Shown here: positions 6,260 to 20,018 of the stretch, piece after piece | How positions within the stretch are numbered: the stretch's first letter is position 1 | Layout: each line of letters begins with the position of its first letter | IMG/VR virus record: IMGVR_UViG_3300035136_000079 | Coordinates: 1 to 42,277 of that record | DNA length: 42,277 bases | Reading direction: 5' to 3' (one strand) | From: a virus | Notes under the pieces: generated by a model | What the model was told of the DNA's origin: nothing | Seen by the model: the letters and a program-made list of their open reading frames with translations, nothing else | The model's database searches: none | Position numbers and translations under genes: made by a program

Positions 6260-6808
6260 TTATTCGCTCGCCTCGCTGTCGTGGATGTTGCGGCCTGTGA
6301 GTGTCACAACGCCAACAATTTTTACATCTCCATCAACGATGATATTTCCTTTTTTTTCTTCCTGTTGTTCATCAAAATCTTCATCATCACTATATGATAC
6401 AAACTCGTCGCCAGCATCTTCAAAAATAAACGAGATCGTTGAAAAATCATCATCTGTTGATAGGCAGAATCCAGCAAACAAATCGCGATACTCGATAAAA
6501 CATTTTCTTGTTACAACAGAGTGGCCAGCAATATCTATGTATCCGGGGTGTGAGCTTTGTGACCAATATTCAATGCGACTATATTCAATCTCATCCCCTT
6601 CAAAAATGCGCTCTCCGTTCGCATCTCGACGTCCAATGTACTGGCAGACTGTTTTTGGATGCGCGAAAAACTTAACAAGCGCACCGTCTTCCCTGCTTTG
6701 CACTATCAATGCAGTATCACCACTACCACCATTAATTATCCCGCCAAACCACCCTTCAATCCAGCGTTTTGATCCGTGTTGTTTTGCTTTATAAATATGC
6801 TCTCTCAT
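6260..6808 (-). CDS. YopX-family phage protein
   Basis: A 182-residue protein starting at ATG 6808 with GGAG five bases before the start. The core motif TVCQYIGRRDANGERIFEGDEIEY corresponds to the hallmark of the YopX family (TVgQYTGlkDknGkeIfEGDiv). These are small beta-barrel phage proteins of unknown function, common in early regions. The C-terminus is unusual: a long acidic tract (about residues 140-155, SDDEDFDEQQEEKKG) followed by a strand-rich end. The RBS and the bases before it resemble those before the DUF5131 gene, a trace of the local duplication. Confidence 0.8.
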   Translation of the reverse strand: MREHIYKAKQHGSKRWIEGWFGGIINGGSGDTALIVQSREDGALVKFFAHPKTVCQYIGRRDANGERIFEGDEIEYSRIEYWSQSSHPGYIDIAGHSVVTRKCFIEYRDLFAGFCLSTDDDFSTISFIFEDAGDEFVSYSDDEDFDEQQEEKKGNIIVDGDVKIVGVVTLTGRNIHDSEASE

Positions 6809-6822
6809 TTTGTCTCCAATAT

Positions 6823-6942
6823 CTATTCATGAAGTCCATCCATAAACCTCTGTTTCATTTTTTCCGCGTGTTCCTCGTCGCCGAAGAATCTGGATGATCG
6901 CAAAGCGATCCCGTTTGACACCATGACCAGCTCACCGGATAT
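6823..6942 (-). pseudogene. Duplicated 3' fragment of the 72-residue gene
   Basis: The last 35 or so codons of the 72-residue gene at 7655-7873 are repeated here in frame (ELVMVSNGIALRSSRFFGDE...), ending in TAG at 6823. There is no proper start: an open frame extends to 7023 but lies inside the DUF5131 coding sequence. It is most simply a leftover of a duplication that placed DUF5131 between two copies. A fused small product cannot be excluded. Confidence 0.65.
6831..6934. repeat. 104-base direct repeat, copy A
   Basis: Matches 7681-7784 with one mismatch (caaagcg against cagagcg). The two copies lie exactly 850 bases apart and flank the DUF5131 gene. Weaker similarity continues leftward to the next start codon in each case. 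High identity points to a recent event. Confidence 0.95.
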
Positions 6943-7658
6943 GCATTCCACGTTTCGCCAAGCAGCTTTCTTCCATTCACTTTTTTGGATCTTTTCACCA
7001 TGTCTTCTCCCCAGGTGCCCCATTGTTTGAAAAAAAATGCGATCCCCTGTGCTTCACATTGATTTTTGATGGACAGCACCCATTCTCTTTTCATTGGCCT
7101 TGCGCGCGGGCCCGATTCTCCTCCCACAATCACCCAGTGAATGCCGCTTAAATCAATATCGCTCAGGTCTTCGAGAAGCGGTTCCATGGAAATGAATCTC
7201 ACCGGAGCATGAACACGTCGTAAAAAATCGATTCTGGGTATGCCACTTTTAACATCTTCCACTGTTACTCCCAGCCATACATTCGACGGGAGATCATGAG
7301 TTTCGCAGTACGCCTCCATTCTGCGTTCCCGTTTTGTGAGAATCTGATATAAATGCTGCGGTGTCCTGTGTATGGTTTCGAAAACCATGTCCAGAAACTG
7401 ATCGGGAATCTCTTCATGGAAGAGGTCGCTCATTGAATTTACAAAATAGCGCGTCGGCTGCCGTCGCTCCATGGGCTGCTGCAATCGTTCAGGTATAATG
7501 CTGACATTGAATCCGTTTTCATAACCGGCCGCTCCCATTGCATGTAATCTCCTCGCCATCACTTCGGCATAGCAGTTTGCACACCCGGCCGACACTTTTG
7601 AACATCCGGTCGTTGGATTCCAGGTGGATTCTGTCCACTCAATTTTAGATTTGCTCAT
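6855..7658 (-). CDS. Phage Gp37/Gp68 family (DUF5131), three-cysteine protein
   Basis: A 267-residue protein starting at ATG 7658 (ATGA overlap). The N-terminus MSKSKIEWTESTWNPTTGCS followed by KVSAGCANCYAE is diagnostic: C-x5-C-x2-C, a three-cysteine motif reminiscent of radical SAM enzymes. Other family blocks are NSMSDLFHEEIPD, ILTKRERRM, NVWLGVTVE, RFISMEPLLED and WVIVGGESGPRARPM. The biochemical role is not established. After GETWNAYP, the usual family end, the frame runs into repeat copy A and picks up about 25 residues in a foreign frame, so the C-terminus is not native. That supports insertion or duplication at this spot. Confidence 0.85.
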   Translation of the reverse strand: MSKSKIEWTESTWNPTTGCSKVSAGCANCYAEVMARRLHAMGAAGYENGFNVSIIPERLQQPMERRQPTRYFVNSMSDLFHEEIPDQFLDMVFETIHRTPQHLYQILTKRERRMEAYCETHDLPSNVWLGVTVEDVKSGIPRIDFLRRVHAPVRFISMEPLLEDLSDIDLSGIHWVIVGGESGPRARPMKREWVLSIKNQCEAQGIAFFFKQWGTWGEDMVKRSKKVNGRKLLGETWNAYPVSWSWCQTGSLCDHPDSSATRNTRKK

Positions 7659-7873
7659 TTTGCATCCAATGTTGATTTACGAAGTCCATCCATAAACCTC
7701 TGTTTCATTTTTTCCGCGTGTTCCTCGTCGCCGAAGAATCTGGATGATCGCAGAGCGATCCCGTTTGACACCATGACCAGCTCAAATGTTTTTCCAGAGA
7801 CTTTGGCGTTACCATTTTCGTCAGGTTCAACGCGGTCTCTCACCTGTGCGTAAAATTTCAGATGTTCATTCAT
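7655..7873 (-). CDS. Small early protein, 72 residues (parent of the duplicated fragment)
   Basis: Starts at ATG 7873, overlapping the end of a 28-codon frame, and stops at an ATGA shared with DUF5131. The sequence (MNEHLKFYAQVRDRVEPDEN, then ELVMVSNGIALRSSRFFGDE) is small, soluble and mixed-charge. I do not recognise the family. Its 3' half is the 104-base repeat whose second copy lies at 6831-6934. The context suggests a cargo slot that accepts accessory genes. Confidence 0.6.
   Translation of the reverse strand: MNEHLKFYAQVRDRVEPDENGNAKVSGKTFELVMVSNGIALRSSRFFGDEEHAEKMKQRFMDGLRKSTLDAK
7681..7784. repeat. 104-base direct repeat, copy B
   Basis: The copy inside the intact 72-residue gene; see 6831-6934. 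It differs at a single base. Together the copies bracket the DUF5131 gene and could delete it by homologous recombination. Confidence 0.95.
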
Positions 7874-11602: not shown

Positions 11603-11913
11603 ACGCGTCCTGTCCCATTGCACCTGCTGCATTGCGAGTTTGCCGGAACCAGACCGCTTAAAATTTCTCTGCCGGTGCCTCCGCATATCGGACACATAAT
11701 TTTTGATTTCTCTTCCTCCAAAAGAATTTTCAACCGATTAACTTCGGTCACGTCACTGCCGACCCCTGTGTTACCTGTGGTTGACTCACCGAAAACCGAT
11801 GCGGCGCCGCAAACATCCTTCGCAACTGCTGCTATTAATTCAACTGATGCGCATATTTTATGTTTGTCAAATATGGCATCAATTGTTTCTTCCCAGTATT
11901 CCACGTCTGTCAT
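11599..11913 (-). CDS. Early protein with DnaJ-type zinc finger, 104 residues
   Basis: Starts at ATG 11913 after leader copy 1, with the shared AAAGGACCAAAAAATG start context. The N-terminal 75 residues are helical and acidic. The C-terminus has CPICGGTGRE and CSRCNGTGRV, two CxxCxGxG repeats as in the DnaJ zinc domain but with one pair of repeats only. It is probably a zinc-binding adaptor; the partner is unknown. Confidence 0.65.
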   Translation of the reverse strand: MTDVEYWEETIDAIFDKHKICASVELIAAVAKDVCGAASVFGESTTGNTGVGSDVTEVNRLKILLEEEKSKIMCPICGGTGREILSGLVPANSQCSRCNGTGRV

Positions 11914-11985
11914 TTTTTGGTCCTTTCAAAAGCGCCCCGACTTTGCGTGCGGTGGACCAGTCCGCGCCGGGACATGTGAGGGTCC
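11914..11985 (-). promoter_or_regulatory. Structured leader, copy 1
   Basis: On the minus strand it starts GGACCCTCACATGTCC, carries TGGTCC in the middle and ends AAAGGACCAAAAA just before ATG 11913. TGGTCC is complementary both to the 5' GGACC and to the GGACCA at the ribosome site. The whole 72 bases are nearly identical to 12968-13039 and close to 12209-12283. It lies between genes. No promoter-like hexamers are visible. Confidence 0.7.
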
Positions 11986-11995
11986 TTCAATTCTT

Positions 11996-12208
11996 TTATT
12001 TCCAAATAATCTGTGACCGACGAATTCGTTTTTTTCCATGAAAAAATTTTGTACGTTCATCATCAGACGATTCGGATTGATCTACTGTCATATATAGAGT
12101 TACAAAAGATGATCCGTACTCCGCAGTCGCGGAAAAATCCTGGCAAATTTGTCCAGCCGTAAATTCGTCAATTTCCCAATCTGTTGTCATGATATATTTT
12201 TTTTCCAT
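11996..12208 (-). CDS. Hypothetical early protein, 70 residues
   Basis: ATG 12208 follows leader copy 2 with AAAGGACTGAAAAA upstream; the longer open frame to 12433 is rejected because it reads through the leader and the neighbouring gene. The product MEKKYIMTTDWEIDEFTAGQ has an acidic middle and a basic end (KKRIRRSQIIWK). I do not recognise it. Confidence 0.55.
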   Translation of the reverse strand: MEKKYIMTTDWEIDEFTAGQICQDFSATAEYGSSFVTLYMTVDQSESSDDERTKFFHGKKRIRRSQIIWK

Positions 12209-12283
12209 TTTTTCAGTCCTTTCAAAAAAAGCGCCCGGCTTTGCGTGCGGTGGACCAGTCCGCGCCGGGACATGTGAGGGTCC
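12209..12283 (-). promoter_or_regulatory. Structured leader, copy 2
   Basis: The second copy of the leader, 75 bases, with three extra T in the run before GAAAGGACTG. The ribosome site here is GGACT rather than GGACC, so pairing with GGTCC would need one G-U pair. The 5' GGACC and the central TGGTCC are unchanged. Confidence 0.7.
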
Positions 12284-12632: not shown

Positions 12633-12967
12633 TATCGGCTCCATTTTTTGAGCTGTTCTGCCATTTGATGCGGGTAAATTGACGTAAAAACATTTCTTTT
12701 TTCGATTATAAATGCGGCATCATCACAGGATAAGATAAAATTGATGAACTCACACAGATCATTTATTTCCTGTTTTTTAATTTCCATATTTTTGACACGT
12801 TTTTCGAGCTGTTCGCCAGCCCATTTTCCAGAATCAATTTTTTTTTGCCTTTTGTCCAAATGAGTTAACATTTCATTTTTGGTTTTCTGCAAACCATTGA
12901 ATGGACTATTGATGACATTATCGATAATGTTTTTTGCCCAATTAATCTGTTTTTCAGTCCCGTTCAT
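12632..12967 (-). CDS. Hypothetical early protein, helical, 111 residues
   Basis: Starts at ATG 12967 after leader copy 3 (AAAGGACCAAAAA upstream). The opening NGTEKQINWAKNIIDNVI resembles small phage helical proteins that start with a KQ-x-WA-x-x-I motif. A basic heptad-like centre (KRVKNMEIKKQEINDLCEF) predicts a coiled coil. Its function is unknown. The stop overlaps the next start (TAATG). Confidence 0.55.
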   Translation of the reverse strand: MNGTEKQINWAKNIIDNVINSPFNGLQKTKNEMLTHLDKRQKKIDSGKWAGEQLEKRVKNMEIKKQEINDLCEFINFILSCDDAAFIIEKRNVFTSIYPHQMAEQLKKWSR

Positions 12968-13039
12968 TTTTTGGTCCTTTCAAAAGCGCCCCGACTTTGC
13001 GTGCGGTGGACCAGTCCGCGCCGGGGCATATGAGGGTCC
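12968..13039 (-). promoter_or_regulatory. Structured leader, copy 3
   Basis: The third copy, 72 bases, differing from copy 1 at only a few positions (CCCCGG and CATATG in place of TCCCGG and CATGTC). The three segments GGACC, TGGTCC and AGGACCA are intact. It precedes ATG 12967. Confidence 0.7.
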
Positions 13040-13051
13040 GGTATTCTGTAT

Positions 13052-13426
13052 TCAATCAGCTATATGCTCAAAACGGCCCGGGCAAGCGCCCGTCTCATCC
13101 CAGTATCTGCGACATGAGCAAATCCTGTCGCTCTCCCCATGATGATGCACCGGACATCCGTACGTATTCACGATCCATCTCGCGTCGGGATGAATCGGTC
13201 GTGACACCTCGTCCACACGCGGATTTTCCGCGTCGTACCGCCGGTCGAACTTTTTGATGAGTGCGTTCCACTCATCAAGATCAATGGGGTTTTCCGAGGA
13301 TATATTTAATTTTCTCTTGATTTCCAATTTGTATTTTTCAAGCGCTGTGATGCGCTTGTTGACGTAAGCGATATAATCATTATACCGCTGCATGCGATCT
13401 TCATATTCTTTGAATTCGTTGTCCAT
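13052..13426 (-). CDS. Early protein with coiled coil and Cys/His-rich C-terminus, 124 residues
   Basis: ATG 13426 is chosen for its GAGGACCAAATT ribosome context. The N-terminal half is a basic-acidic coiled coil (KEYEDRMQRYNDYIAYVNKR). The C-terminal 45 residues hold a cluster YGCPVHHHGESDRICSCRRY and a later CPG, which could chelate zinc. I do not recognise the family. Confidence 0.55.
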   Translation of the reverse strand: MDNEFKEYEDRMQRYNDYIAYVNKRITALEKYKLEIKRKLNISSENPIDLDEWNALIKKFDRRYDAENPRVDEVSRPIHPDARWIVNTYGCPVHHHGESDRICSCRRYWDETGACPGRFEHIAD

Positions 13427-13607
13427 AATTTGGTCCTCTCGTTGTGGCAGTCTCATCAGCGCCGGTTGCCACGCGGCGGACGGGCCACAGCCCGTTTCGG
13501 CTTTATCTCTCGACTACATTGTATCGTCGAGAATCAGTCTGGCTCTCGTCCGACAGATAAATCAGAGCGGCGGACGGGCGGAGCCCGTTTCGACAGTTAT
13601 TACGGCA
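13427..13607 (-). promoter_or_regulatory. Intergenic leader with several hairpins
   Basis: Four inverted repeats lie in 150 bases: GTGGCA/TGCCAC (13444-13449 with 13467-13472), CGGGC/GCCCG (13481-13494), TCTCGAC/GTCGAGA (13508-13532) and ACGGGC/GCCCGT (13574-13588). The second and fourth are parts of a repeated 26-27-base unit (13473-13499 and 13567-13592, GCGGCGGACGGGC core). It lies before the gene at 13426, so it is probably a structured 5' RNA. No T run follows the stems, so it is not a simple terminator. Confidence 0.55.
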
Positions 13608-14811: not shown

Positions 14812-15444
14812 ATGACAATGCCGACTGTTCATTGCGCGCACGACGCAATGGTTCCCCTGGCGGAACTCCATCCAAATCCGCGCAATCGCAACACTCATCC
14901 CAAAAAACAGATAAAGATGCTGGCCAAAATTTTCATGGAGAACGGCATACGCAGGCCAATCACGGTGTCGAAGCGGTCCGGGTTCATGACGATTGGTCAC
15001 GGTCGCCTGTTCGCCGCCCGGCTGCTCAAAATGGATGCGTATCCTGTCGACTATCAGGATTACGCTTCAGATGAACATGAGATGGCTGACATGCTGGCCG
15101 ACAACATCATCCCGGAGCTGTCTGAAATGGATGTGGCCGGCATGGAGGAGGACAGATCACTGCTCGAAGTGGCCGGGTTTGATTTGGAGATTGCAGGGTT
15201 TGATAATATCGATCAGTCTCATGCGCCGGAAATCATACAGGGGAAGGATGTCCTTGACGGATCAAATTACACAAATATTCAGTCGAGCAGATACTCAATC
15301 AATCTGTTTGGCATTGGCGGTTTTGTTCCGAGGGAGAATGGTGATGTGATAAAAAACAGACTTGTCACAATGGGCGCAGTTGAAGGCGAGGACAACAGCG
15401 AAGTAATAGAAAAGTTTTTTGATGAAATTCTTTCTGTTCAATGA
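14812..15444 (+). CDS. ParB/Srx-fold domain protein
   Basis: A 210-residue protein. ATG 14812 is chosen (AGGAG ten bases upstream) over a start at 14728 lying in leader sequence. Residues 10-110 are a ParB N-terminal domain: MVPLAELHPNPRNRNTHPKK, then IKMLAKIFMENGIRRPITVS, then the nucleotide-site motif TIGHGRLFAARLL and VDYQDYASDEHEMADMLADN. In phages such proteins stand beside terminases and DNA-modification enzymes and often act in base modification or as nucleases/CTPases. The C-terminal 90 residues are unassigned. The 3' end overlaps the radical SAM gene by 23 bases. Confidence 0.8.
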   Translation: MTMPTVHCAHDAMVPLAELHPNPRNRNTHPKKQIKMLAKIFMENGIRRPITVSKRSGFMTIGHGRLFAARLLKMDAYPVDYQDYASDEHEMADMLADNIIPELSEMDVAGMEEDRSLLEVAGFDLEIAGFDNIDQSHAPEIIQGKDVLDGSNYTNIQSSRYSINLFGIGGFVPRENGDVIKNRLVTMGAVEGEDNSEVIEKFFDEILSVQ

Positions 15445-16633
15445 TAACGGGGAATACACATCATCGCTTATAAAACACGTCATGTCCTCATATATGGCGG
15501 AGTCATTCAATGAATGCACTCACGTTATGGTTTCAATATGCGACATCACCGAGCTTGACATTCTTCTGAAGGCGAAGATGACGGGAAAGCCGGTTGTTGC
15601 CGGCGGTTTCATATCCGAGATTCCGATTCTCAACGAGATTGCGGACTATGTTTATCACGGAGAAATTTTCGGTCTAAAAAAATATCTTGATGCGGGATCA
15701 TCTCTTGAGGATGTTCCGTTTATAACGACAAAAAAAAATAGACTCCTCAAAATATGCACTGATATAGAATGGAATGACTGCCCAATCGTAACGGTCGGTA
15801 AAAAGAGCGCATATTTTTATTGCAGCAAGGGTTGCTATCAGAAATGCAAATATTGTCTGATGGCATATACCAGAAGTCCTCAATGCGTTCCGGAAAATAT
15901 TTACAGAGTAGCCGAGAGCTCGATAGAGAGGTCCGGCAGAAGTTTTCTGCCAATCGGCGCATACGATCCATATCGGAGTAAAAAAAAGAAACGAATCACG
16001 GAACTTTTCCTGCGAGAGTATATCAAAATGGACAGGGAACAGCTTTCAATGCTTTCTCTGGTGCGAACCGGCATTGAGTTTTGCAACAGAGACAACAGCG
16101 TCATGCTGGCCAAGGGGGTCACATCGGATCATTTCTCAAAGGCTCTTGAAATATCACTGTTGAACCGGCATCGGATGATTTGTTATTTCATATCAGGTGT
16201 TGAATCTCAGGAAGAGACTCATGATTTTTTTCGCGATATCCCAAGACAGTTTCAGAGAACTCCTGATGTCAGAATCGTTGGAACGATAATTGACCCTCAG
16301 CCCTCAACGCCGTTTTTCGATTTTGATTTGACTAAAAAAAAGAAGATTGATCATAAAAAGCTCTACTGGTTTGTCAGTGGAATAAATAAAAGAATATCCG
16401 TGCAGCAGACAAACTTCGACAGGGCGACATTCAGGACACTGGCTCAAAGAGTGGTATCTCTCGGTCAGTACAGACGATTGCCAAAATCGAAGAGTCATTT
16501 CGATATGCTTGATGTGGCCAATTCCATTGATGAACGTCTTCTCGGATCATCTGATATAAAACAGATAAGGGAAAGAAGACGATCTGACTGTTACATTGGA
16601 AAGACCGTTATCCCATATTGGGAAGTCGCGTGA
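15422..16633 (+). CDS. Radical SAM enzyme, possible DNA or nucleotide modification
   Basis: A 403-residue protein starting at ATG 15422, inside the ParB gene's end. C138-x3-C142-x2-C145 (GCYQKCKYC) is the canonical radical SAM 4Fe-4S motif; C134 lies just before. The N-terminal 110 residues (KPVVAGGFISEIPILNEIAD, then YVYHGE) resemble the Rossmann-like domain preceding the SAM barrel in B12-type or MiaB-like enzymes, but I see no DxHxxG cobalamin motif. The middle and end lack a recognised partner domain. Coupling to a ParB-like gene and the terminase suggests action on phage DNA. The substrate is unknown. Confidence 0.75.
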   Translation: MKFFLFNDNGEYTSSLIKHVMSSYMAESFNECTHVMVSICDITELDILLKAKMTGKPVVAGGFISEIPILNEIADYVYHGEIFGLKKYLDAGSSLEDVPFITTKKNRLLKICTDIEWNDCPIVTVGKKSAYFYCSKGCYQKCKYCLMAYTRSPQCVPENIYRVAESSIERSGRSFLPIGAYDPYRSKKKKRITELFLREYIKMDREQLSMLSLVRTGIEFCNRDNSVMLAKGVTSDHFSKALEISLLNRHRMICYFISGVESQEETHDFFRDIPRQFQRTPDVRIVGTIIDPQPSTPFFDFDLTKKKKIDHKKLYWFVSGINKRISVQQTNFDRATFRTLAQRVVSLGQYRRLPKSKSHFDMLDVANSIDERLLGSSDIKQIRERRRSDCYIGKTVIPYWEVA

Positions 16634-16663: not shown

Positions 16664-17002
16664 ATGAGTGACAGAGCCGAAATGAAGGAAAAGATTGAGG
16701 CCCTGGTATCAAAGCGCGACAGAATCGGGAAGCGCCGTCTCACAATTGATCAGCGTCTGAAAATCCTAAACCAGATTTATGATGCCGCGCTCTACTGGAT
16801 GCAGGCGGCCGTCACCGCCGGACAGTCAAAAGGCACCGGCTCGGCGGCGATTCTGCTGAAATCGACTCGAGAGGAAATCGTGGCGTGGGAACATCAGGGC
16901 GTGTCTCAGATGGACCATAATATTTCGTTTGAGCTTCCGGGACTGGACTTCTCAGCATACGACCAGGAACAGAAGAAAAAAGAGCAGGAAGCAAATGCGT
17001 AA
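16664..17002 (+). CDS. Probable terminase small subunit
   Basis: A 112-residue protein starting at ATG 16664 with GGAG seven bases upstream. It is helical and basic at the N-terminus (RAEMKEKIEALVSKRDRIGK), with a charged C-terminus (YDQEQKKKEQEANA). Its place, overlapping the large-terminase start by one base, is the main evidence. It should bind the packaging site and regulate TerL. No classical HTH is obvious. Confidence 0.6.
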   Translation: MSDRAEMKEKIEALVSKRDRIGKRRLTIDQRLKILNQIYDAALYWMQAAVTAGQSKGTGSAAILLKSTREEIVAWEHQGVSQMDHNISFELPGLDFSAYDQEQKKKEQEANA

Positions 17003-18393
17003 TGTCAGTTGCGGTAAAGAGGCAGCGGGAAGCATTGGCTCTTCAAGGCATTGCTCCGCCGCATCCAAAGCAGCTTGCGGTATTGAATTATCTTCTGGCT
17101 CCCAATCCGCACCATTTGAAAAAAGTGGACCTGATATGCGGTCGCGGATTCGGGAAATCACTGCTGTGCATCATTATTTCCGTGTACTGCCTGAGCATCG
17201 ATGGAAACCAGTGCGGACTGTTTCTGGAACCGGACACAAAGCGTGTGGAGAAAGTGTTTCTTGCCAAGTGGCGGAAACACGTACCGCGCTATCTGTACGA
17301 TATAAATTATTCGAAACAGCGAATCACCTGGTGCAACGGTTCCGTGCTGTACTGGGACCACCGCGACATATACGGATCTCTTGAAGCGCGGCGCGACCGT
17401 GACAGGGGACCGGACTACACGTGGATTATCTCCGATGAGGAGGCAATCAAATGCGACATACAGCAGTACTCAAACACGCTGGCCGCATGTCGAGAAAAGG
17501 GCCCTGTTCGTTTTTATCTTACGGCGACGACTCCAAAAATAGGAGAGTACAGAACGCTGACATCGATGGAGGATCACAGGGTATTCGTGGGGACATCCCA
17601 CGACAACCCGCATTTGCCTGCTGATTTCATTCCGACGCTGATGGCGTCCATGTCGAGGGATCAGATTCGGCGCGAGATTTACGCTGAATTCGTCGCCCTC
17701 GAAGGCAGAATATGGAAAGAATGGGACAGTGAAAATGCATGGCCGAAAGGTAATATCCACCACGGACTCGCCCGGTTCGATCCGTCAAAACCGTGGTGGC
17801 TGTTTTGCGATCTTGGGAGCGCAACGGCGGCGTATGTCGTTGTTCAGAATTGCCCGGCGGAACGATTTGGTCAGCGCATGTTCGATGGAAACGTATGGGT
17901 TGCGGTGGCCGATCTCTGTCCGTACCACGACGCCAACGCTGTAAGGGCTTTCAACAGACTGAAGGCGGAATACGGTTCTCCGGTCGCGGTGACGGGCGGA
18001 AACGATATCAACACGCGATCCGGAGTGGACGGTAAAACGATTTCGTATCACGCCCAGAAGGTGTGGCCGAACTGCCGTGTGATACCGGTTGACGAGAGTT
18101 ACGCCGACAAGACGATACAGTTCGATCGTCTCAGTTTCATGATTTGCTCCGGTGATGGAAATCGCCGGTTCTGCATGGCGAAGAACTACAGGGAAATTGA
18201 GCCGGAGGGTCGGCGCGGACTGAAACAGATGTTCGAGGAGGATGTCTGGCCGGATGTCCCGACATCGGCAACTGAATTTCTTCCGAAGAAGGCGGACATA
18301 ATGATTCAGCACGTTCGCGATGCTCTGCTGATGGGAACCGCTGCGATAATGTCTCCCCCGAGATGGGGATACCAGGACGAAAGAACGAAATAG
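17002..18393 (+). CDS. terL: Terminase large subunit
   Basis: A 463-residue protein. The ATPase has Walker A GRGFGKS (47-53), Walker B WIISDEE (141-147) and coupling motif TATTP (174-178). The nuclease half opens with LFCDLGSATA (first Asp of the RNase H-like site), later Asp in VTGGNDINTRSG and a C-terminal D in QHVRDALLMG. It pumps DNA into the prohead and cuts concatemers. The start overlaps the TerS stop (TAATG). Full length for the family. Confidence 0.9.
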   Translation: MSVAVKRQREALALQGIAPPHPKQLAVLNYLLAPNPHHLKKVDLICGRGFGKSLLCIIISVYCLSIDGNQCGLFLEPDTKRVEKVFLAKWRKHVPRYLYDINYSKQRITWCNGSVLYWDHRDIYGSLEARRDRDRGPDYTWIISDEEAIKCDIQQYSNTLAACREKGPVRFYLTATTPKIGEYRTLTSMEDHRVFVGTSHDNPHLPADFIPTLMASMSRDQIRREIYAEFVALEGRIWKEWDSENAWPKGNIHHGLARFDPSKPWWLFCDLGSATAAYVVVQNCPAERFGQRMFDGNVWVAVADLCPYHDANAVRAFNRLKAEYGSPVAVTGGNDINTRSGVDGKTISYHAQKVWPNCRVIPVDESYADKTIQFDRLSFMICSGDGNRRFCMAKNYREIEPEGRRGLKQMFEEDVWPDVPTSATEFLPKKADIMIQHVRDALLMGTAAIMSPPRWGYQDERTK

Positions 18394-20018
18394 TGATTAA
18401 GCTCAGACAGGAGATGGAGGAAATACGGATTCTTGATCTCACCAGAGACGAGGCCATTGTTGACGAGATAGACTCGTATTTCAACCGCAGTGATGATCAC
18501 GACAGGATAAAGGCGGCAATCAAAAAACGATACGGAATTGGAATAACGGTTGAGAGTGATCCCGCACATCCTGAACAGCCGTACAAACTGTATTCCAGAG
18601 GAGAATTCAGCATACAGGTTGATGCCGGCATCATCGGTGCGATCGATATAGGATTCGGACAGAAGGTCGTCTCTGCGCTTGCGACTCTGTTCACGGAGCC
18701 GGGCCAGAGATTTGATTTGGTCGGAGATGACGATACCGACACCACGGATCAGCAGACACTCATGGCGGACATCCGTGACAGTGGCGGGATGATGTCTGCA
18801 ATCGTGAACGCCAGCCGGGCCTCCATCCAGTGCGGTTCCGCCGCGATGTTCATATCCGCCAAAAATGAGGGGCTTAAATATCAGAGACTGATACCGTCGC
18901 AGATTCGCTGCTACTGGCCTGAAATAATTCTGGATGGGGATGTTCGCAGAGCGCCGGATTACTCCGACATTGACGACGCATACGCCATTGTGATTCGCAC
19001 GTCAATGGTTGATTTGGAAAAATACAACTACCTGGCCATTTTTTCCCGTTCCGAGGACTGGCCAAACGGAAGGTGGGTGGAATACACTGCCAGTTCATCT
19101 GAAACAAAACTGCCGGATATCGGAGAACCGGATTCGTTTGAATATGAGATTGACGGCAAACCGGCAAATCCTCTGTCATACTGGGCGAATACCGGAGGAT
19201 CTGAATACAGTGTTCCGGAATTTCCCATCGTTCCGATTATGGGAGTAACGCAAAGCACGTCCACGCCGTTTCCCGTGTCCACATCTCTGTATGAGGATGA
19301 TCTTGAATTTACGATAACCGCATCTCATATACTGTCGAAGGGGGATGACGCCGCCGGAGGAACAGACATTATTGAGCTGGATCAGGTGGGAGCCGGTGTC
19401 CCTCTTCCGAAGACTCTCAGTGGAGCCATAACGACACTCCCTGGTCAGACATACAGACACGAATCCCGCAATGCGGCGGATGTCAAAACGGCGTGGGAAA
19501 CGGTTCAGATGCTGAAGGTTGCTGCCGCATCAGGTTATGCGGTACCTGATTACATGATTGTGTCCGAGGACTACGCGCTTGAGGCCTCATCCGGGATAGC
19601 ATTGCAGGTGAAGACCAGGCCGCTGGTGAAAGAGCGTCAGAGACTTGAGCTGATCAACAAAACGTATGTGGCCAGAATGTTTGAGATCGAGAAGGCTCTT
19701 TTGAACATGCATCTTGCCGACAGATACAAAAATGTTGAATCTCTTTTGCCGCTCCACATGGAGTGGTCGGCCGGACCGCTTGAACTGCCTGAGAACAAAA
19801 ATGAAAAGGCCCAGCGACTTGTGACGCTCATGGACAAGGGCGTTATCGATGTGATTGCCGCCATCCGCGACTACAACAATTTCGCAACGGATGGAGAGGC
19901 CGAAGAGGAATACAGCAGAATGAAGGCCAGACAGCAGGAATTTCCTCCGCTTGTGCAGGAGAAGCCGAGGCAGGTAGGAATGTTCAGAAACGCGCAGCAA
20001 CCGGTGAACAATGGCTGA
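18363..20018 (+). CDS. Portal protein
   Basis: A 551-residue protein. The start is uncertain: ATG 18363 overlaps terL by 31 bases, while GTG 18393 would overlap its stop by one base. The order (helical N-terminus, SIQVDAGIIGAIDIGFGQKV, RLIPSQIRCYWPEIILDGD, long helix around QVKTRPLVKERQRLELINKT) is typical of a portal. The position between terL and MuF confirms it. It forms the dodecameric DNA channel. The end is Gln/Pro-rich. Confidence 0.85.
   Translation: MGIPGRKNEIVIKLRQEMEEIRILDLTRDEAIVDEIDSYFNRSDDHDRIKAAIKKRYGIGITVESDPAHPEQPYKLYSRGEFSIQVDAGIIGAIDIGFGQKVVSALATLFTEPGQRFDLVGDDDTDTTDQQTLMADIRDSGGMMSAIVNASRASIQCGSAAMFISAKNEGLKYQRLIPSQIRCYWPEIILDGDVRRAPDYSDIDDAYAIVIRTSMVDLEKYNYLAIFSRSEDWPNGRWVEYTASSSETKLPDIGEPDSFEYEIDGKPANPLSYWANTGGSEYSVPEFPIVPIMGVTQSTSTPFPVSTSLYEDDLEFTITASHILSKGDDAAGGTDIIELDQVGAGVPLPKTLSGAITTLPGQTYRHESRNAADVKTAWETVQMLKVAAASGYAVPDYMIVSEDYALEASSGIALQVKTRPLVKERQRLELINKTYVARMFEIEKALLNMHLADRYKNVESLLPLHMEWSAGPLELPENKNEKAQRLVTLMDKGVIDVIAAIRDYNNFATDGEAEEEYSRMKARQQEFPPLVQEKPRQVGMFRNAQQPVNNG

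Follow-up and report, generated by a model that had tools for sequence, protein, structure and literature searches.

What is the function of a ParB-like gene that overlaps a radical SAM gene and lies directly in front of the terminase genes of a phage? This arrangement was found in the virus record IMGVR_UViG_3300035136_000079, whose 42,277 bases were analyzed as a whole and are referred to here as the window. The window encodes a tail sheath and baseplate proteins, and thus it comes from a contractile-tailed phage. The genes in question and those that follow them are:

14812..15444, plus strand: ParB-like protein of 210 aa, with ParB_N at about residues 6-132, a C-terminal tail of about 75 aa, and no fused methyltransferase
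15422..16633, plus strand: radical SAM protein of 403 aa, with an N-terminal Rossmann-like part, CX3CX2C at residues 138-145, a B12-type radical SAM core up to about residue 304, and a C-terminal stretch of about 100 residues without assignment
15422..15444, plus strand: overlap of 23 nt between the ParB and radical SAM genes, with the geometry of translational coupling
16664..17002, plus strand: 112-aa protein in the small-terminase position (TerS-like, by position only; weak DUF977 match)
17002..18393, plus strand: terminase large subunit (TerL; Pfam Terminase_6N 2.5e-6, phrog_2 4e-17)
18363..20018, plus strand: portal-like protein (weak phrog_64 match)

The ParB gene starts with an ATG at 14812, preceded by CAGGAG, and stops with a TGA at 15442-15444. 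The radical SAM gene runs from an ATG at 15422 to a TGA at 16631-16633 (the open reading frame list has it start with a TTG at 15419 instead). The original prediction, made from the letters alone, had a ParB-fold gene and a radical SAM gene overlapping at 14812-16633 and a CxxxCxxC motif at residues 138-145. These coordinates are right, and the motif position is exact when counted from the ATG at 15422. The TerS-like, TerL, and portal-like genes are directly 3' of the pair and on the same strand. With a GC3 of 0.45, lower than the 0.56-0.62 of its neighbors, the radical SAM gene looks like an imported one. Genes dedicated to precursor supply were not recognized in the window, where part of the genes could not be annotated.

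Several other features were observed in the window. A type II hammerhead ribozyme (Rfam RF02276, 38.9 bits, cut-off 37) is on the minus strand at 13442-13502, near the 5' end of an open reading frame at 13052-13456 on the same strand. A 76-nt repeat is present in three copies between early genes (11910-11985, 12208-12283, and 12964-13039), and RNA folding of the two copies tested was not clearly above that of shuffles. A direct repeat of 131 nt with 94% identity (6804-6934 and 7654-7784) is at the 5' ends of two minus-strand early genes. The minus-strand gene at 6855-7658 encodes a DUF5131 / PHROG 2045 protein (E 1.7e-95) with clustered cysteines (CSKVSAGCANCYA), and this is possibly a second radical-SAM-like protein of the phage.

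The ParB-like protein matched PHROG 620 (E 5e-22) and the ParB-like N-terminal part of PHROG 498 (E 1e-24), a family named DNA methyltransferase. It also matched Spo0J in PDB (E 8e-4), and the Pfam ParB_N match was under the cut-off (E 0.099). The protein has the ParB_N domain of the superfamily that is represented by PHROG 620 and by the PHROG 498 N-terminus. Its nearest phage relatives are ParB-methyltransferase fusions of PHROG 498, including those of Phage nd4, Roseburia phage Shimadzu, and Faecalibacterium phage FP_Lagaffe. The ParB domains are homologous with 47-50% identity, but the window protein is missing the methyltransferase domain and has the tail of about 75 aa and the overlapping radical SAM gene in its stead. 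A DNA methylase had been said to occupy this spot in many phages, and this agrees with the fusions and with the terminases that follow such modules. The protein is not a canonical partition ParB, as it has 210 aa and its tail of about 75 aa has no match to any ParB profile. No ParA partner was recognized among the window genes scanned.

The second protein has the cluster cysteines C138, C142, and C145 (CX3CX2C), and an aromatic residue precedes the last of them (KYC), as is usual for radical SAM proteins. It had no match in Pfam, NCBIfam, PDB, 50,697 phages, or 72,556 plasmids, and the PHROGs gave only one match of 26 residues, to phrog_9298 (E 0.093). When single proteins were used as queries for related loci, nothing was found in viral or genome contigs, and a first DNA pattern of the Cys motif with extra flanking codons had no match either. 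Scanning viral contigs with a DNA pattern for KGCxxxCKYC identified one true homolog, L184, with 43.6% identity over 346 aa (blastp E 8e-99). Since this homolog is on an unrelated contig and keeps all three motif cysteines, the radical SAM protein is real and more than a chance reading frame. Downstream of the L184 gene are TerS-like, TerL (backed by PDB matches), and portal-like genes. The L184 TerS-like and portal-like proteins have no similarity to their window counterparts, and the TerL similarity is marginal (E 0.009). Because these packaging genes differ, the radical SAM gene holds its place before the terminase while the neighbors change. The exact pair of a ParB and a window-type radical SAM gene was found once, and the L184 contig is cut at its 5' end, where the presence of a ParB is unreadable.

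Genomes were sampled as well. Single-protein queries against 387 genomes of one phylum and 398 of a second gave weak local matches only, and those that were read were mostly MtaB/MiaB methylthiotransferases, plus one B12-binding radical SAM protein. A profile of two sequences (the window protein and L184) had no match at E <= 1e-8 in 395 genomes of a third phylum. No true homolog was found in the three sampled genome sets. With so few homologs the AlphaFold models were unusable (pLDDT 34 with one sequence and 31 with two).

We used the two-sequence profile as the query against profiles built for B12-type radical SAM enzymes, methylthiotransferases, and phrog_9298. The B12-type profile was matched by hhalign with a probability of 97.6 and a score of 93, collinear over residues 48-304, that is, over the N-terminal Rossmann part and the radical SAM core. 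The alignment spans the Rossmann-domain part GG...DYVxHGE, the Cys motif, and a QPxTP stretch. The reversed control scored 20.5 and the best of 60 column shuffles scored 29.9. When residues 129-151 (the Cys region) were masked, the alignment was unchanged with a score of 42.6. By this comparison the window protein has the architecture of cobalamin(B12)-binding-type radical SAM enzymes, and its Rossmann-like N-terminus fits this. Compared with class B-like cobalamin-binding enzymes, the collinear part is the same but the N-terminus of the window protein is short and the DxHxxG cobalamin motif is absent. Some members of this class bind B12 without DxHxxG. The N-terminal Rossmann-like half and the C-terminus had been said to match no familiar family; the protein indeed matches no database family, but the claim can be narrowed, since it is a relative of the B12-binding-type radical SAM enzymes.

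Other families were rejected. Membership in phrog_9298 is not indicated by the PHROG match above or by hhalign (probability 31, 28 columns); phrog_9298 is itself B12-type (probability 98), but its similarity to the window protein is confined to the Cys motif. The match to the spore-photoproduct-lyase-like (SPL-like) phage radical SAM proteins, the L182 family, was also limited to the Cys motif (probability 21, 15 columns). Neither is the protein a methylthiotransferase of the MiaB/RimO/MtaB type, as only two cysteines precede residue 112, there is no Pfam TRAM match, and NCBIfam TIGR00089 gave 12 bits against a cut-off of 251 with no full-length match.

The usual substrates of B12-type radical SAM enzymes are small molecules, lipids, or peptides. 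The enzyme might thus act on a substrate other than DNA (tRNA, a host metabolite, a nucleotide, or a protein), with ParB as a mere neighbor that has an unrelated DNA role. The Cys-motif region resembles that of the MtaB/MiaB tRNA methylthiotransferases (28 bits, best of 300 shuffles 3.1; hhalign 95.9), which would suit tRNA. However, the resemblance is local and weaker than the B12-type match: after masking of the Cys region the methylthiotransferase score was 31.0, about the shuffle level of 29.9 seen with the B12 profile. Moreover, the three N-terminal cysteines and the TRAM domain of methylthiotransferases are not evident, and no family of tRNA-modifying enzymes gave a family-level match. 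The ParB overlap, the position before the terminase in two phages with unrelated neighbors, and what other viruses have in this slot also argue against a non-DNA substrate, and we consider it unlikely.

The content of the slot was surveyed from the side of ParB. A ParB alignment search found 232 viral relatives, the best 80 of the 232 were kept, and removal of ParBs more than 90% identical left 56 non-redundant loci. Many of the 56 are fused to a methyltransferase (mostly judged by motif, some by Pfam), and in L045 and L056 ParB is fused to a TGT-like domain. Pfam assignments of the genes directly 3' of unfused ParBs (n = 24) included seven C5-methylases, five TET-associated glycosyltransferases, two N6/N4 methylases, one class I methyltransferase, one radical SAM protein (L040), one other glycosyltransferase, and one glutamine amidotransferase. 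The gene after ParB in L041 is TGT-like, with 37% identity to the TGT-like protein of L017. Terminase families dominate among the two genes after each ParB module. Among more distant phage ParBs, the overlapping gene encodes a Mom-like protein in L015, a TGT-like one in L017, and a radical SAM protein of phrog_9298 in L023 and L027. The window has the layout of these ParB-associated modification modules, with the partner adjacent to ParB and near the terminase, and by analogy the partner would act on DNA.

Some of these loci contain further genes. PHROG 9298 proteins beside ParB (Oscillospiraceae phage NatCom_21982, Caudoviricetes sp. vir335, and L023) are also B12-type and ParB-overlapping, but they form a separate family that aligns with the window protein at the Cys motif only, and the ParB gene of vir335 lies on the strand opposite to the radical SAM gene. 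The phrog_9298 gene of L023 is just 5' of SpeD-like and TerL genes. The whole row on the minus strand of L023 (6594-8990) consists of ParB, the phrog_9298 radical SAM protein, an AdoMet decarboxylase (SpeD-like), and terminase, and it is possible that this is a polyamine-linked DNA hypermodification cassette. In L017 (1957-5502), an SPL-like radical SAM protein, ParB, a TGT/DpdA-like protein, and a YhhQ-like (Vut_1) transporter are encoded together, which is probably a 7-deazaguanine DNA cassette. In L123 / L150 (4001-5742, Akkermansia genomes), the gene of a 386-aa ABC-ATPase-like protein overlaps ParB by 4 nt. This protein has a possible acetyltransferase half (phrog_11143) and is a candidate slot partner.

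A second survey started from radical SAM. The only criteria for its 65 viral loci were two Cys patterns of radical SAM proteins and a reading frame that is open for at least 200 aa, and ParB was no more than 3 kb away in 34 of them. In the non-redundant set of 45 loci, ParB was directly upstream and overlapping in 7 of the 23 members of the SPL-like family, and in none of the six loci with DUF5131-, QueE-, or activase-like proteins (named from motifs). The ParB-radical SAM gene link recurs widely in viral contigs. The SPL-like loci (L182, L171, L258, and others) have the same order and overlap before TerS/TerL as the window, but their radical SAM proteins are not homologous to the window protein and lack the N-terminal Rossmann part. 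For example, the order in L182 is ParB, radical SAM, TerS-like, TerL, and its TerL is 64% identical to a C. difficile phage protein annotated as terminase. When SPL-like members were compared with phage records, one had no match at E 1e-10 and another had four weak, unannotated matches.

Among the ParB-linked radical SAM families, the SPL-like one was the most frequent here, and the SPL-like protein of L017 has a weak match to the PHROG 'DNA repair photolyase'. A DNA repair role of the pair was considered, in which the radical SAM enzyme would undo a base lesion in phage DNA before packaging, like spore photoproduct lyase. However, the window protein is outside the SPL-like family and in the B12-type class, and the other partners in the slot are modification enzymes rather than repair enzymes, so we regard repair as quite improbable. 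Still less probable is a prophage-partition or regulatory ParB followed by a passenger radical SAM gene (a moron): the family name derives from plasmid partition and the low GC3 looks import-like, but no ParA was recognized in the scanned window genes, there is no room for the C-terminal part of a canonical ParB, and the close ParB relatives are fused to modification enzymes.

ParB-superfamily partners of DNA-modifying enzymes have precedents. ParBc domains accompany DNA methyltransferases and CmoX, where the function of ParBc has been called unknown (PMC12783734, 2025), and the ParB-like DpdB works with DpdA (PMC12839542). The window pair is similar in its composition, but CmoX and DpdA have other chemistry than the window enzyme and no radical SAM protein was reported there. 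A description of ParB-radical SAM modules was not found in open-access full texts, and the few open-access papers checked that contain both terms use them together only incidentally.

DNA base modification is the likeliest role in view of the gene layout, of a slot whose enzymes are exchanged, and of ParB genes that recur next to several radical SAM families. With moderate confidence, we propose that the locus is a swappable ParB-associated DNA-modification slot, occupied here by a radical SAM enzyme of the B12 type that modifies a DNA base once replication has taken place. The DNA that the pair alters is probably that of the virus itself, and the change would be of a so far undescribed kind. 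The ParB-like subunit would bind DNA, and perhaps a nucleotide too, and recruit its partner to phage DNA. With its 4Fe-4S cluster, the radical SAM enzyme would generate a 5'-deoxyadenosyl radical from SAM, and this radical might lead to alkylation, methylation, or rearrangement at a carbon atom in a DNA base, perhaps with the help of cobalamin. This would take place after replication and before or during packaging, and the altered base would shield virion DNA against host nucleases. Related phages have other base-modifying enzymes in the same slot, in what looks like a plug-in exchange. The 23-nt overlap and the place directly before the terminase count for DNA modification; against it, radical SAM enzymes have many substrates, and DNA is the presumed one here. 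A radical modification of phage DNA before packaging had already been suggested, and the gene-neighbor survey supports such a role of the pair as the leading hypothesis, while DNA as the substrate, the kind of modification, and the timing before packaging are the parts that we infer. It is a more tentative proposal that the enzyme, guided by ParB, installs an undescribed radical-derived base modification and that several radical SAM families without mutual homology, its own included, are exchanged in a ParB-marked slot by the terminase.

Few characterized enzymes perform radical chemistry on DNA bases. If the proposal is true, phages would own several unrelated radical SAM enzymes to mark their DNA, each flagged by an overlapping ParB gene near the terminase. 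It would also offer a way to test the role of ParB in modification systems that was called unknown (PMC12783734). Furthermore, the arrangement would provide a simple rule to find new DNA modifications and new routes past restriction.
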